The notes under the pieces: generated by a model
Told to the model about the DNA's origin: nothing
What the model saw: only the letters and a program-made list of their open reading frames with translations
Database searches by the model: none
NCBI RefSeq assembly: GCF_014202425.1
Contig: NZ_JACHGT010000022.1
Location: forward strand, 62,001 to 126,000
Length of the DNA stretch: 64,000 bases
Origin: Phytomonospora endophytica
GTDB lineage: Bacteria > Actinomycetota > Actinomycetes > Mycobacteriales > Micromonosporaceae
Reading direction: 5' to 3'
Part shown: positions 6,927 through 60,465 of the stretch, in pieces
Layout: the number at the start of each line of letters is the position of its first letter
How positions within the stretch are numbered: the first letter of the stretch is position 1
Program-made: the position numbers and the translations under genes

Positions 6927-8180
6927 TCAAAGCGCCGGGCGCGGCGCTTTCGCCGGGTGGATCTCCATCGCGGGCGCGTTGGCCAGGAGCAGCCAGGCGG
7001 GCAGCACGGCCAGGCACAGCAGCGGGAGCAGGGTGACGTCGCCGACGACGACGGCCGCCATGAAGATGCTCAGCCAGCCCTGCCTGCTGATGGCCATGGT
7101 GAGGCCGAGGATGCCGCAGCCGACGGCGAGCGCGGCGGGGATCCGTGGGAAGGCGGCGGTGGCGAGCAGACCGAGGGCGACGCCGATGAAGACGACGGGG
7201 AAGATGCGGCCGCCGCGGAAGGCACTGCTCGCCGCGATGACGAGCGCGATGAGTTTGACGACGATGATGACGGCGAGCCCGCCGATGGTGTGGGCGCCGG
7301 GGTCGGCGGCGAGTTCCTTCATTTCTTCGAGGCCTTTGAACAGGGTGAGCTGTCCGCCCCACATGCCGAGGAGGCCGAGCACGGCACCGCCCACGCCGAG
7401 GATCAGGACCGGGTGGCGCATGGCGTGGAAGGCGCGGTGGGCGTGGGGAAAGGCGAGGGTCGCGAGTAGCCCGAGAGCCGCGGCGACCAACGTGACGGCG
7501 GGTCCGGTGAGCAGGTCGAGGGCGGACAGGCCGGGGTAGTCGGCGACGGTGATGGTGAACGAGGGCTCTTCGAGCAGTTGGAGGGTCAGCGAGCCGGCGC
7601 CGGCCGCGAGGAGGGGCGCGAACATGCGGTCCCACAGCGGGGTCTCCGGGTCGCCGGCGGCGGACTCGGTGAGGGTGAGCGCGGCGGCGACGGGCGTGCC
7701 GAACATGGCGCCGATGGTTCCGGCGGCGGCGATGCCGACCCAGGTCGCGGCTCCCGGTCCGGGCAGGAGGCGCAGGCCGAGGAAGACGGCGAGGGCGACG
7801 TTGACGGCGATGATCGGGTTCTCGGGGCCGAGGCTGACTCCTCCGGCGAGGCCGAGGACCAAGGTGATGAGCAGTCCGGGGATCGCCGAGACCGGTTGCG
7901 GCCCGGAGACCAGTGAGGTCGTGGCGGGATCCGGTCCGGCACCGCCGGGCCATTTCCACACGACCAGGCCGACGGCGAGGCCGGTGGCGGTGAGCACGGC
8001 GAACGTCCACCAGGTCCCGTCGGTGCCGACGGAGAACCGGCCGGGCAGCCAGTCCCACAGGAAGTGCTGGAGCTTCTCGGCGAGCACGCTCGCGGCGACG
8101 AGGATGAGAGCGCTCCCGGCGCCGATCAGCACGGCCAGGGGCGCCAGCCGCAGCAGTCCGCGCACGTCGGTTCTCTTCAT
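6927..8180 (-). CDS. CLC-family chloride channel/transporter
   Basis: A 417-residue polytopic membrane protein without CBS domains. CLC signatures are seen in variant form: GGVSLGPENPII corresponds to GSLGREGP and keeps the gating Glu, and FRGGRIFPVVF corresponds to the GGxFxP selectivity segment. Some residues (GPENP for GREGP) are unusual, so ion selectivity is uncertain. Its start overlaps the stop of the SulP gene by 4 nt (ATGA), so it is translationally coupled to it; both are probably made from one transcript. Confidence 0.85.
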   Translation of the reverse strand: MKRTDVRGLLRLAPLAVLIGAGSALILVAASVLAEKLQHFLWDWLPGRFSVGTDGTWWTFAVLTATGLAVGLVVWKWPGGAGPDPATTSLVSGPQPVSAIPGLLITLVLGLAGGVSLGPENPIIAVNVALAVFLGLRLLPGPGAATWVGIAAAGTIGAMFGTPVAAALTLTESAAGDPETPLWDRMFAPLLAAGAGSLTLQLLEEPSFTITVADYPGLSALDLLTGPAVTLVAAALGLLATLAFPHAHRAFHAMRHPVLILGVGGAVLGLLGMWGGQLTLFKGLEEMKELAADPGAHTIGGLAVIIVVKLIALVIAASSAFRGGRIFPVVFIGVALGLLATAAFPRIPAALAVGCGILGLTMAISRQGWLSIFMAAVVVGDVTLLPLLCLAVLPAWLLLANAPAMEIHPAKAPRPAL

Positions 8181-9862
8181 TCGGTCCTCCGGTGTCCCGC
8201 GATCCAGACGTGGGCGGCGTGGGCGGCGCGGTCGAGGGCGCCGAAGACCTCGTCGTCGGCCTCGAAGACGTTGTCGGCGCCCACGCGGGCGAGGACGCCG
8301 CTGTCGTCGAGGATCTTGCGGAAGCGGGCGTCGAGTCCGGCGAGCATGAGCAGCGAGCCGGACGCCCGCAGTTCCTCAGCGCGGCGGGCGAGCCCTTCGA
8401 GGACGGTCGCGGAGGGGATGTCGGTGAGGGTTCGCACGCTGAGGATGAGCACGGCCGGTGCCGCACCGTCCGTGCGCGGCCACTGCTCGCCGACGCTGCC
8501 GAAGCCGGCGAAGAAGCCGCTGCCCGCGTAGTGCAGGACGGTGACCTGGCGGGCGGGGAGGACCTCGGGCGGGTCCGCGACGCGCCAGCCGCCGCCGTCG
8601 GAGCGCAGGGCGACGAGCTTGGCGCGCCGGGCCGCCTGTACGCAGTAGAAGACCAGGGAGAGCAGTGCCCCGAGGAAGATCGCCTGCTGGAGCGGGATCT
8701 GGGTGGTGGCGAGGAAGGTGACGGCCATGGCCGCGGTGGACAACCGGGACGTGCGCAGGACCAGGCGGACGTGGCGGGCCTGCCCGACGATGAGCTCGGC
8801 CCCGACGATGAGCATCAGGCCGCCGATGACGGGCATGGGGATGTACTCGGCGAAGCGTCCGGCGACCAGCACGACTGCCGTCAGCCACAGGCCGGCGAAG
8901 ATACCGGCCCAGCGGGTCCGCGCACCGGCGTCGGTCGCCACACCGGTCCGCGACAGGGAGCCGCCGACCGGGAGGGAGCGCAGGAAGCCGCCGGCCACGT
9001 TGGCCAGGCCCTGGGCGACGAAGTCGCCGGAGGCGCTGGTGCGGCTGCCGTCGGGGTTCGGGACGGCGGCGGCGATGCCCGCCGCCTGGGCCAGCGCGAC
9101 CAGGGTCACCGCGACGGCGCCGACGAGCAGTTCGGGGACCACCGAGAGCTCGGGCAGGACCGGGACCGGCAGGCTCGCCGGGATCGAGGCGATGTCGCCG
9201 ACGGTCTCCACGTCGAGCGAGAACACCGGCGCGGCGACGGTGGCGGCGATCAGCGCGATGAGCATCGCCAGGGTCCTGATCCGCGCCCAGGAGCGGGCCG
9301 CGAACCACACCACGACCGTACCGGCGGCCAGCGCCGTCGTGCTCGGGTCCCAGTCGGTGACGTGCACGAGCCAGTCGGCGGCCTGCGCGACCTTGTTGTG
9401 GACCCGCGGTTCGTAGCCGGTGGCGTCGCCGAGCACACCGGTGAGGATCTGCACGGCGATGCCGGTGGTGAAGCCGGTCATCACCGCGCTCGACACGAAG
9501 TTCATGATCGAGCCGAGCCGCAGGACGCCGAACAGGATCATCATGAGCCCGACGAGGACCGTCAGCGTGGCGACGTTGCCCAGGTCGGCCGGGTCGAGGC
9601 CCGCCTCGGCGAGCACGCTCTGCGAGGACAGCGCAAGTGCACTGGTCAGCGTCGTGACCATGAGGACCGTGCGCGCGAAGAACGATCCGATGATCGCCGG
9701 GAACATGCCCGAGTACAGGCCGAGTACCGGGCTGAATCCGCCGACGGAGGCGTAGGCCATGCCCTCGGGGATGCTGAACAGTCCGGTCACCAGCCCCGAC
9801 ACGACGTCCCGCCCGCTCGGGCGGCTGAGGCCGCGAAACCAGGTCCGCGGACGGCCCGGCAC
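8177..9862 (-). CDS. SulP-family anion permease with STAS domain
   Basis: A 561-residue permease. The N-terminal part has the SulP signature near SGLVTGLFSIPEGMAYASVGG and ten or more membrane helices. A C-terminal STAS domain follows from about 430, with the LILSVRTLTDIPSATVLEGL segment. Family substrates are sulfate, bicarbonate or dicarboxylates; which one is not visible. The start is GTG at 9862: an in-frame TGA lies only 2 codons upstream, ending a 16-codon ORF, and no ribosome site is seen for the GTG itself, which points to coupled re-initiation. Confidence 0.9.
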   Translation of the reverse strand: MPGRPRTWFRGLSRPSGRDVVSGLVTGLFSIPEGMAYASVGGFSPVLGLYSGMFPAIIGSFFARTVLMVTTLTSALALSSQSVLAEAGLDPADLGNVATLTVLVGLMMILFGVLRLGSIMNFVSSAVMTGFTTGIAVQILTGVLGDATGYEPRVHNKVAQAADWLVHVTDWDPSTTALAAGTVVVWFAARSWARIRTLAMLIALIAATVAAPVFSLDVETVGDIASIPASLPVPVLPELSVVPELLVGAVAVTLVALAQAAGIAAAVPNPDGSRTSASGDFVAQGLANVAGGFLRSLPVGGSLSRTGVATDAGARTRWAGIFAGLWLTAVVLVAGRFAEYIPMPVIGGLMLIVGAELIVGQARHVRLVLRTSRLSTAAMAVTFLATTQIPLQQAIFLGALLSLVFYCVQAARRAKLVALRSDGGGWRVADPPEVLPARQVTVLHYAGSGFFAGFGSVGEQWPRTDGAAPAVLILSVRTLTDIPSATVLEGLARRAEELRASGSLLMLAGLDARFRKILDDSGVLARVGADNVFEADDEVFGALDRAAHAAHVWIAGHRRTE

Positions 9863-9865
9863 GGC

Positions 9866-9916
9866 TCAGCCCGCGAGCGCGTCGGCGAAGGGTTCCCGGG
9901 ACGGTGCGACGGGCAT
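9866..9916 (-). CDS. 16-codon upstream ORF (possible leader peptide) before the SulP gene
   Basis: The minus strand encodes MPVAPSREPFADALAG and then TGA, starting at ATG 9916 with a near-ideal GGAGGAGG ribosome site 6 nt away. It is in frame with the SulP gene and its stop lies 3 nt before the SulP GTG. TATGGT (9958-9953, minus) is a plausible -10 about 37 nt upstream of the ATG. The peptide has no Cys run or proline stall motif, so a regulatory role is inferred from position. An alternative is that this ATG is a relic of the permease's own start after a nonsense change. Confidence 0.5.
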   Translation of the reverse strand: MPVAPSREPFADALAG

Positions 9917-10116
9917 CGAGAACCTCCTCCGGGGGACGTGTGGCGCATGATGACCATAACCACACCCGCACCGGAAGAGACGCTTTTCGAGTGATATCGG
10001 CCGTCCATCCGAAAGTGACTGTTTTACGTCCCTATCGGGGGGTTCGAGCCTAGGCTGGGTCGAGCCGGTGGACCGGCCGGTGGCCACCGGCGAGGACGCG
10101 GCGGAGAGGAGAACCC
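9917..10116. promoter_or_regulatory. Divergent intergenic region, SulP operon and small membrane protein
   Basis: The 200 bp hold the putative minus-strand -10 TATGGT (9958-9953) for the SulP operon and a plus-strand TAGGCT (10051-10056), a likely -10 for the downstream membrane-protein gene, with a leader of about 50 nt and a GGAGAGGAG ribosome site before its GTG. No clear -35 hexamers were found. Confidence 0.4.
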
Positions 10117-10497
10117 GTGGGTTTCATAGTCCAGCTCCTGCTGACCGCCGGCGCCCTGTGGCTGTCGACGGTCATCGTCCCCGACATCGACGTCAGCGGC
10201 AGCGGCGCCTTCGCGAACTTCATGACACTGCTGGTCGTCGCCTTGATCTTCGGTCTGGTCAACGCGCTGATCAAACCGATCGTGCAGATCTTCGGCTGCG
10301 CCTTCTACATCCTCACCCTCGGCCTGTTCGCCCTCGTGGTGAACGCGCTGATGTTCTGGCTGACCGGCTGGCTCGCCGACAAGATAAACCTGCCGTTCCA
10401 CGTGGGCGGCTTCTGGGCGGCCTTCTGGGGCGCCATCATCGTCACCGTCGTCAGCTGGATCGTGGGAGCCTTCCTCCCGCGCAAGGCCGAGGACTAG
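10117..10497 (+). CDS. Phage-holin-family (PF04020-type) four-helix membrane protein
   Basis: A 126-residue integral membrane protein with four hydrophobic helices, conserved polar breaks (NALIKPIVQ, NALMFWLTGWLAD) and a short basic tail (PRKAED). This matches the YvlD/holin-4 superfamily common in actinobacteria, where no lytic role is established and no phage genes are near. The GTG start has GGAGAGGAG upstream. Its TAG overlaps the TAG of convergent priA within a single CTAG. Confidence 0.8.
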   Translation: MGFIVQLLLTAGALWLSTVIVPDIDVSGSGAFANFMTLLVVALIFGLVNALIKPIVQIFGCAFYILTLGLFALVVNALMFWLTGWLADKINLPFHVGGFWAAFWGAIIVTVVSWIVGAFLPRKAED

Positions 10498-60135: not shown

Positions 60136-60259
60136 ACGACTGGTGACCTCCGCGATCTATGTTCGCGGTTGGGTACGACCTTTGTCGCCGGACATCGCGG
60201 TGATTCCACTCACCATGATCCACGGCTTTTTTCGCGATGCGGAAAGGCCGTGGTCCGGC

Positions 60260-60265
60260 TAGGGT
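60260..60265 (+). promoter_or_regulatory. -10 box of the tRNA-like gene pair
   Basis: TAGGGT ends 9 nt before the first base of the extended acceptor helix of the first tRNA-like gene, so transcription should start almost at its 5' end. No clear -35 was seen. Confidence 0.5.
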
Positions 60266-60274
60266 GCTCCACAA

Positions 60275-60354
60275 TGCCCGGACGTAGCGCAGCCCGGCCG
60301 GCGCACCGTCTTCGCAGGACGGGGGACGCGGGTTCGAATCCCGCCGTTCGGGCA
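60275..60354 (+). tRNA. Unusual tRNA-like gene 1, anticodon loop position reads CGC
   Basis: A full cloverleaf can be drawn: T8-A9, D stem GCGC/GCGC, anticodon stem CCGTC/GACGG with loop TTCGCAG (anticodon CGC by position), variable loop GGGAC, T arm GCGGG-TTCGAAT-CCCGC. The acceptor CCGGACG/CGTTCGG (one G-U) extends 3 more pairs outward, to 10 bp (60275-60284 with 60345-60354). CGC would read the Ala codon GCG, but there is no G3-U70 pair of tRNA-Ala in the normal register, and no CCA is encoded. Amino acid and function are uncertain. Confidence 0.6.
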
Positions 60355-60366
60355 GGTTCCACGATC

Positions 60367-60442
60367 GTGGGCCCGGTAGCGCAGAGGCCGTCGCACCGCC
60401 TGCACAGCGGGGGACGCGGGTTCGAATCCCGCTCGGGTCCAC
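60367..60442 (+). tRNA. Unusual tRNA-like gene 2, anticodon loop position reads GCA
   Basis: It follows gene 1 by 12 nt and shares 24 identical bases with it (60409-60432), covering the variable loop and T arm. The anticodon stem CCGC/GCGG (4 bp) holds loop CTGCACA, with GCA (Cys) at the anticodon. The D arm is short, 3 bp at best. The acceptor pairs over 10 bp (60367-60376 with 60433-60442, two G-U pairs). It does not look like ordinary actinobacterial tRNA-Cys: the D arm is too weak and the acceptor too long. It may be a variant or decayed tRNA. Confidence 0.5.
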
Positions 60443-60465
60443 TGCTCCGGTTGGAAGGGGACAGG

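Follow-up and report, generated by a model that had tools for sequence, protein, structure and literature searches.

A tandem pair of tRNA-like elements upstream of an SDR-like gene in Phytomonospora endophytica represents a family of candidate tRNA-mimic RNAs in actinobacteria

The window analyzed here is a stretch of 64,000 nucleotides from Phytomonospora endophytica (RefSeq assembly GCF_014202425.1, contig NZ_JACHGT010000022.1, positions 62,001 to 126,000 of the forward strand). Two tRNA-like elements lie in tandem within it, together with the putative promoter box, ribosome-binding sequence and SDR-like gene listed in Table 1. Both ARAGORN and Rfam model RF00005 recover the pair, in agreement with a preliminary description that had been made from the sequence alone. 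ARAGORN also reads the same anticodon positions, calling tRNA-Ala(CGC) at 60278–60353 and tRNA-Cys(GCA) at 60369–60442. The start codon given for the SDR gene is a choice, since a second GTG occurs two codons further on.

Table 1. Coordinates of the tRNA-like pair and associated features in the window
Feature	Position	Strand	Basis and remarks
−10 box TAGGGT of putative promoter	60260..60265	+	Sequence; 9 nt to the first base of element 1
tRNA-like element 1	60275..60354	+	CGC in anticodon position; ARAGORN, RF00005 and family model R1
tRNA-like element 2	60367..60442	+	GCA in anticodon position; ARAGORN, RF00005 and family model R1
Shine–Dalgarno-like sequence GGAAGGGG (putative)	60453..60460	+	Sequence; between element 2 and the start codon
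Zn-finger SDR-like protein, 434 aa	60466..61770	+	PF00106/PF13561; GTG start 24 nt past element 2

Each element closes with an acceptor helix of 10 pairs, G-U pairs included, as had been proposed: TGCCCGGACG/CGTTCGGGCA (60275–60284/60345–60354) in element 1 and GTGGGCCCGG/TCGGGTCCAC (60367–60376/60433–60442) in element 2, both read from the sequence. The anticodon stems are CCGTC/GACGG and, with 4 bp, CCGC/GCGG, exactly as first described. The block of identical sequence shared by the two elements is 25 bases long rather than 24, and the 92-bp register reported between them holds in the 5′ half, with the offset falling to 88 in the T arm. In minimum free energy (MFE) folds, element 1 alone forms a cloverleaf with the 10-bp stem, and element 2 forms the 10-bp stem, the T arm and the anticodon hairpin. 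The D arm of element 2, described as weak, does have a stem of 3 bp that is poor in the MFE fold, but a 3-bp D stem is typical of the family described below, the fourth D-stem pair being absent in 51 of 56 relatives. An encoded CCA is indeed absent, but its absence is uninformative, with CCA encoded in just 16 of the 45 ordinary tRNAs of the host genome. The folding energy of the elements is unremarkable compared with shuffled sequences (z −1.56 and −1.51), and the 231-nt leader folds no better than shuffled sequence (z +0.54).

RF00005 scores element 1 at 52.0 bits and element 2 at 36.1 bits, with a gathering score of 29. Standard tRNA scores combined with normal 7-bp acceptors had been named as the outcome that would make the pair unexceptional; the scores are above gathering, yet the acceptors have 10 bp. 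No other Rfam family matches the pair at gathering. tmRNA reaches 24.6 bits against a gathering score of 47 and was rejected, as were matches to the Tymo tRNA-like and mascRNA families, both under their gathering scores. For the Y RNA family, no match was listed at E ≤ 10 in 901 bases around the pair, in a library that may hold no such family. The host genome (8.35 Mb, 35 contigs) has 48 RF00005 matches, and ordinary genes for both tRNA-Ala CGC and tRNA-Cys GCA are among them; therefore, the window pair is redundant for decoding. A family model built without the window elements, R1, gives them 73.0 and 71.9 bits, whereas the best ordinary tRNA of the host scores 58.4 bits, a separation that is good only within this genome. 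Across the phylum, R1 has matches in 52 of 296 genomes at E ≤ 1e-15, a count that is not used as a family size. Seven R1 matches with 66–71 bits were fetched from genomes other than those of the Streptomyces-type genus, and each proved to be an ordinary tRNA-Pro, -Gly or -Thr. Because ordinary tRNAs of other classes thus reach ~71 bits, close to the scores of the window pair, R1 alone is not diagnostic.

The protein encoded downstream has a predicted SDR fold (mean pLDDT 65), and a fold search with the structure model also returns SDR proteins. Residues C95, C98, C113, C116, T345 and K349 are invariant in an alignment of six rows (A2). Besides a four-Cys finger, the protein has HPHTNMAK at residues 342–349, at the expected position of the catalytic YxxxK motif; by this rule, which we assume to apply here, T345 sits where the catalytic Tyr is expected. 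Judged by its sequence, a family with these features is probably not one of ordinary dehydrogenases. No further gene of the system discussed below adjoins the SDR gene in the window. Tandem ankyrin-type and MoxR-type genes are found on another contig of the host genome (G000:C14, L297 9770–12440), and ARAGORN calls nothing tRNA-like in the surrounding 18 kb. Between the promoter of the pair and a divergent MFS gene, directly 5′ of the former, lies an inverted repeat, CCACGGC...GCCGTGG (60220–60253).

A DNA search of 60 relatives yielded similar elements with differing anticodons, often in tandem. We then described the family by the search pattern TAGMGCAGAGGHMGNCN{22,46}GGTTCGA, which matches in at least 73 of 250 genomes of the host's taxonomic family and at least 20 of 394 of its class; family members are present in Streptomyces too. 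The reversed pattern, used as a control, has no match among the matches listed, and a narrower pattern has none in viral contigs. In total, 168 distinct cores were collected, including those at loci reached through the SDR gene (L093–L121). Since the elements are related, the counts given here do not represent independent events. Element 1 of the window has a longer D loop and is therefore outside the search pattern. Element 2 is among the 54 of 168 elements with other arm lengths, which are excluded from alignment A4 and from the arm statistics. A4 comprises 56 of 61 diverse, ungapped elements, the other five being omitted. All A4 sequences have GG in the D loop and TTCGA in the T loop, and the two loops could thus make their usual contacts, as expected of a YrlA-type tRNA mimic; both motifs are, however, fixed by the search pattern, so part of the D-arm and T-arm invariance is imposed. 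We found no paper on these tRNA-like elements in the open-licence PMC literature, which is not proof of absence.

The preliminary description had suggested compensatory change and selection on RNA structure, and had named a lack of conservation and covariation as the finding that would speak against this. The relatives collected support the suggestion strongly. In A4 (n = 56), the covariation score of the cloverleaf with a 10-bp acceptor is 0.501 versus 0.165 for shuffled alignments, with none of 500 shuffles reaching the observed value; the same structure slid along A4 scores at most 0.159, and doubly changed cells number 217 versus 63. Unaided, RNAalifold predicts the same arms and eight of the 10 acceptor pairs. 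In the five-pair T stem, 99.6% of cells are paired. The three acceptor pairs beyond the usual seven occur in 64, 70 and 80% of A4 sequences and show 12, 9 and 19 doubly changed cells, respectively. Among all 168 members, acceptor positions 8–10 are paired in 74, 77 and 73%, compared with 31, 29 and 22% in the 45 ordinary tRNAs of the host. The mean extension of the helix is 2.39 bp in the family, 0.97 in shuffled sequences, and 0.40 in the ordinary tRNAs.

The anticodon arm is hypervariable, with 109 distinct arms in a set of 114 elements of one length, and anticodons differ at the same SDR locus between related genera. Nevertheless, the anticodon stems of these elements form an average of 4.50 of five pairs, compared with 3.06 ± 0.08 in 2000 shuffles. 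On this comparison of sequences, the arm is free in sequence, with its pairing kept by compensatory change. U33 is kept in 73 of 94 canonical or near-canonical arms, as in real tRNAs; arms with five pairs have U33 in 61 of 77 cases and a purine at position 37 also in 61 of 77. A class of 15 arms (roughly CCYWNGCNNCRAGCWGG) has no normal anticodon stem and U33 in none of its members; in most cases examined, these arms precede SDR or LRR genes. The anticodon arms are slightly closer to the host's own tRNA arms than independent columns would be. The best identity to host tRNA arms averages 12.33 of 17, versus 11.96 ± 0.09 (maximum 12.23) in 500 shuffles, and 14 of 94 anticodon loops are identical to real ones, versus 8.0 ± 2.4, a value of 14 also being reached by at least one shuffle. 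This small effect may stem from descent from real tRNAs or from mimicry that is being maintained.

The position of the promoter is closely tied to the long helix. In 99 of 114 first elements (the window is not among the 114), a TANNNT box starts at −28 to −21 before T8, and in just three of the 114 does one occur elsewhere within −70 to −7. The commonest position of the box is 7 nt before the first base of the 10-bp helix. Because this position suits the −10 box of a sigma-A promoter, we infer a transcription start at the helix's first base or directly beside it. No −35 motif common to all loci was seen by eye. The acceptor extension averages 2.96 bp in elements with a −10 box (n = 115) versus 0.74 bp in those without (n = 34). 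Nineteen of the 34 elements without a box lie behind another matched element, 17 of these at 21–31 nt. Elements lacking a box keep the ordinary 7-bp acceptor in most cases and may undergo tRNA-type processing. In the window, both copies have the long helix, downstream of the TAGGGT box. The extra pairs would be made by the transcript's own 5′ end lying on the would-be discriminator and CCA site.

Some of these promoters carry a further motif. TGTCRGTG-N8-TANNNT, which we take to be a PafBC-type (RecA-NDp) promoter, occurs with at most one mismatch before 10 of 114 first elements, compared with two of 839 control TANNNT sites. In published accounts, promoters of this type have a role in the response to DNA damage and have spread to other Actinobacteria (PMC6789036, PMC8223512). 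The exact motif is present at loci L079, L086, L088, L242 and L276, before SDR, LRR or ankyrin-type system genes. In the window promoter, the corresponding eight letters (60244–60251) do not fit it.

Linkage to protein-coding genes is frequent. By the rule used, 74 of 110 elements directly precede an SDR (34), ankyrin-type (29) or LRR (11) gene, with a median distance of 28.5 nt from element to gene and ≤60 nt in 55 of the 74 linked cases; for elements fetched by RNA pattern alone, 62 of 94 are linked. The same rule leaves 36 of the 110 elements unlinked to the three gene families, and 18 of the 110 with no same-strand gene at all. In related genomes, the SDR, ankyrin and LRR genes run together with genes for a MoxR-type AAA ATPase and a DUF2201/VWA protein, according to blastp between loci and Pfam analysis of L076. 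Pfam analysis of linked proteins at L076, L082–L084, L093, L105 and L112 found SDR, LRR, ankyrin, AAA and DUF2201/VWA domains and no TROVE domain. PADLOC, applied to 10 proteins, found no defence family beyond weak repeat and AAA matches, and an NCBIfam search found no specific family. The structure model of the ankyrin family matched essentially on the ankyrin end in a fold search. At L238 (539–2551), ankyrin-type and SDR proteins are fused in one frame directly past two tRNA-like elements; the fusion hints, at the level of sequence, that the two proteins share a function.

The view that homologous elements would stand beside the same SDR gene was borne out when the SDR protein was used as the starting point. 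Of at least 574 encoded matches, 80 were kept; among these, the 29 closest relatives (55–70% identity, from Streptomyces, Kitasatospora, Lentzea, Kutzneria, Amycolatopsis and others) include 19 with same-strand tRNA-like elements upstream. At a further two, L106 and L098, the family model detects weak traces (45.1 and 24.3 bits) upstream of SDR genes that are intact. In the remaining eight of the 29, the family model finds nothing upstream; thus, the SDR protein can do without the element. The other 51 of the 80 kept loci, which carry SDR paralogues, have no upstream element in 700 nt (in three of the loci, less sequence than this was covered), and three of the 51 carry an ordinary tRNA-Leu. 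An SDR match is present in at least 169 of 250 genomes. Among the best 41 listed SDR matches in these 250 genomes (≥579 bits), 31 have a listed element ≤300 nt upstream; the 109 further listed matches (≤565 bits), which represent a paralogue, have none, as compared by eye. The split between the element-bearing SDR and the paralogue is not clean: a third, lower-scoring group, ~50% identical to the window protein, also has elements (L235, L248, L273–L275, L277 and L280). The syntenic relative of the window, L084 (G007, 8013–10280), has the same neighbors and four elements before two shortened SDR-like genes; in one of these elements, the anticodon arm is extended by some 14 nt.

Thirteen loci found through the SDR gene have a further element elsewhere. 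In 11 of the 13, this element is head to head with the DUF2201-type VWA gene, starting within ~110 nt of the start of the VWA match or slightly overlapping it. In L105 and L112, the DUF2201 assignment is confirmed by Pfam. Eight of the 11 loci are from Streptomyces, with one each from Kutzneria, Amycolatopsis and Streptacidiphilus. In eight of the 11, no same-strand gene is predicted behind the element within 700 nt; of the other three, L105 and L112 have an ORF call there, and the contig ends in L102. In L099, a T run follows directly behind the element. Since the VWA-facing copies mostly lack a gene behind them, we argue that the RNA can be a product in its own right.

Several known RNAs resemble these elements in part. 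Ro60, the partner of Y RNAs, carries a VWA domain. YrlA is a bacterial Y RNA with a tRNA-like domain, encoded in rsr-yrlBA-rtcBA operons beside the gene for a Ro60 orthologue, and a role as competitive inhibitor of an anticodon nuclease has been suggested for it (PMC7790460). The elements share with YrlA the mimicry of tRNA beside a VWA-type gene, and the YrlA operon is described there as stress-linked (PMC7790460). However, the VWA protein here is of DUF2201 type, not Ro60, and RtcB is not among the proteins scanned. In addition, the cloverleaf here begins near +1 with a 10-bp helix, is often in tandem and has a hypervariable anticodon arm. By analogy, the elements may work like YrlA and other Rsr Y RNAs while belonging to a separate group, as their neighbor is not Ro60. 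tRNA-like operators also occur in mRNA leaders, e.g., that of E. coli thrS, where tRNA mimicry is likewise found just 5′ of the start codon; by contrast, the elements here are complete cloverleaves by non-synthetase genes, and some copies have no gene behind them. In allo-tRNAs and tRNA-Sec, the acceptor and T branch comprises 8+4, 9+3 or 8+5 bp. The elements also exceed the usual length of this branch, but with ~10+5 bp and an extension that is mainly in promoter-adjacent copies, and the linked proteins scanned include no recoding partner. MoxR-vWA conflict systems of multicellular bacteria, actinobacterial hosts included, combine MoxR-type AAA and VWA proteins, according to a published account (PMC7159879), as do the loci described here, and the AAA protein of L076 has a weak match to Pfam bpMoxR. 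Unlike the present loci, the main text of that account contains no “ankyrin,” “short chain,” “DUF2201” or “leucine,” and tRNA solely in the title of a reference (PMC7159879). With ordinary tRNAs, the elements share the cloverleaf; they have neither a 7-bp acceptor with a single-stranded discriminator and CCA site nor a conserved anticodon.

The reading that we prefer, at roughly even chances, is that the window pair encodes tRNA-mimic RNAs that serve as cofactor or bait of a system of SDR, LRR, ankyrin, AAA and VWA proteins, with the copies in leaders coupling the output of RNA and protein. It builds on the structure, covariation and linkage described above and predicts transcription, a start site, binding and a function. 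The RNA would be made with a closed, CCA-free end, since transcription would start at its 5′ end and the helix would hold its 3′ end. The RNA would therefore escape normal maturation and charging, looking like a tRNA without being one. Proteins of the system would bind the RNA as a cofactor or bait, with AAA and VWA proteins as the machine, repeat proteins as adaptors, and the SDR protein as a nucleotide-binding sensor or effector. The changing anticodon arms might sample tRNA-directed attack, e.g., by anticodon nucleases, or mimic several tRNAs. An element in the leader would tie protein production to the state of the RNA, and, given that a subset of promoters carries the PafBC-type damage motif, stress would raise RNA and protein together.

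The main rival to this reading is that the elements act in cis only: the tRNA-like fold at +1 would guard the 5′ end of the mRNA or control translation, as a switch flipped by a tRNA-binding protein, a nuclease or the encoded protein itself, and no free RNA would act. The start of the elements near the putative +1, their ends within 60 nt of the start codon in most linked cases, and the association of long helices with the −10 box are all consistent with such a leader, as is the fact that each gene of one cluster may own a copy (L079, L236, L242). Yet the VWA-side copies point away from the VWA gene, eight of 11 with no predicted same-strand gene behind them in 700 nt, and one (L099) runs straight into a T run; 18 of 110 elements have no same-strand gene by the rule used, and a leader switch needs no hypervariable anticodon arms. 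We regard action in cis alone as a real possibility, though one that we doubt. A role in protein synthesis fits poorly. Translating tRNAs with a supplementary or specialised task, or tRNAs that donate aminoacyl groups to a biosynthetic enzyme, charged once CCA is added, would explain why ARAGORN and RF00005 score full cloverleaves as tRNAs, why U33 and purine-37 are common in five-pair arms, and why some arms are identical to those of real tRNAs (Asp, Glu). This is improbable, however, as both window anticodons are already in the genome, the arms are almost all distinct and one class lacks U33 altogether, the 3′ end is paired inside the long helix, and no aminoacyl-tRNA-using enzyme is among the linked proteins scanned. 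The window elements are, therefore, probably not tRNAs for protein synthesis. Thus, of the three roles offered in the preliminary description, that of unusual decoding tRNAs fits badly, and use outside translation or as regulatory RNAs fits best.

Two further explanations also fit poorly. If the elements were functionless, as decaying tRNA duplicates or integration scars, the traces at L098 and L106 beside intact SDR genes and the wide differences in element sequence would be expected; strong covariation, conserved promoter boxes, gene linkage across genera, and tRNA copies that are complete rather than half make this a very improbable account. That the elements recode, as selenocysteine tRNAs and allo-tRNAs do with their lengthened acceptor branches, is scarcely credible: the branch does exceed the normal 12 bp, but a T stem of 5 bp and an acceptor of ~10 bp give ~15 bp in place of 8+5, 8+4 or 9+3, the anticodons are sense and variable, and no synthetase or SelA/SelB-like partner was seen among the linked proteins scanned. 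RF00005 or tmRNA is also the best clan match listed, weaker clan members being hidden.

The preferred reading of a tRNA-mimic cofactor or bait has a more specific and more tentative form, which we think rather unlikely to hold in full. A fast-diversifying tRNA decoy would be the sensor, and its cleavage or capture by a tRNA-directed attacker, such as a nuclease of a phage or competitor, or by machinery for damaged RNA, would signal a response of the MoxR-AAA, VWA, ankyrin, LRR and SDR proteins. Bacterial RNA-protein systems of this class would then act as an immune or damage alarm based on tRNA. Because ARAGORN files the elements as ordinary tRNAs, many actinobacterial genomes may contain, unnoticed, an RNA family that has a promoter logic and protein partners of its own. 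As cofactors or decoys, such RNAs would open a way into an uncharacterised AAA-VWA system and allow tRNA mimicry under diversification to be tested, and the role of tRNA-like RNAs beside VWA genes, a question also asked for YrlA, would become addressable in Streptomyces.

Two other arrangements were observed among the loci. At L078 (8235–8397), two tRNA-like elements precede a ferric-reductase-like gene, which is not a usual system gene. L037 (G012:C48) and L046 (G027:C18) are dense arrays, with 15 and 14 ARAGORN tRNA genes, respectively, in ~3 kb.
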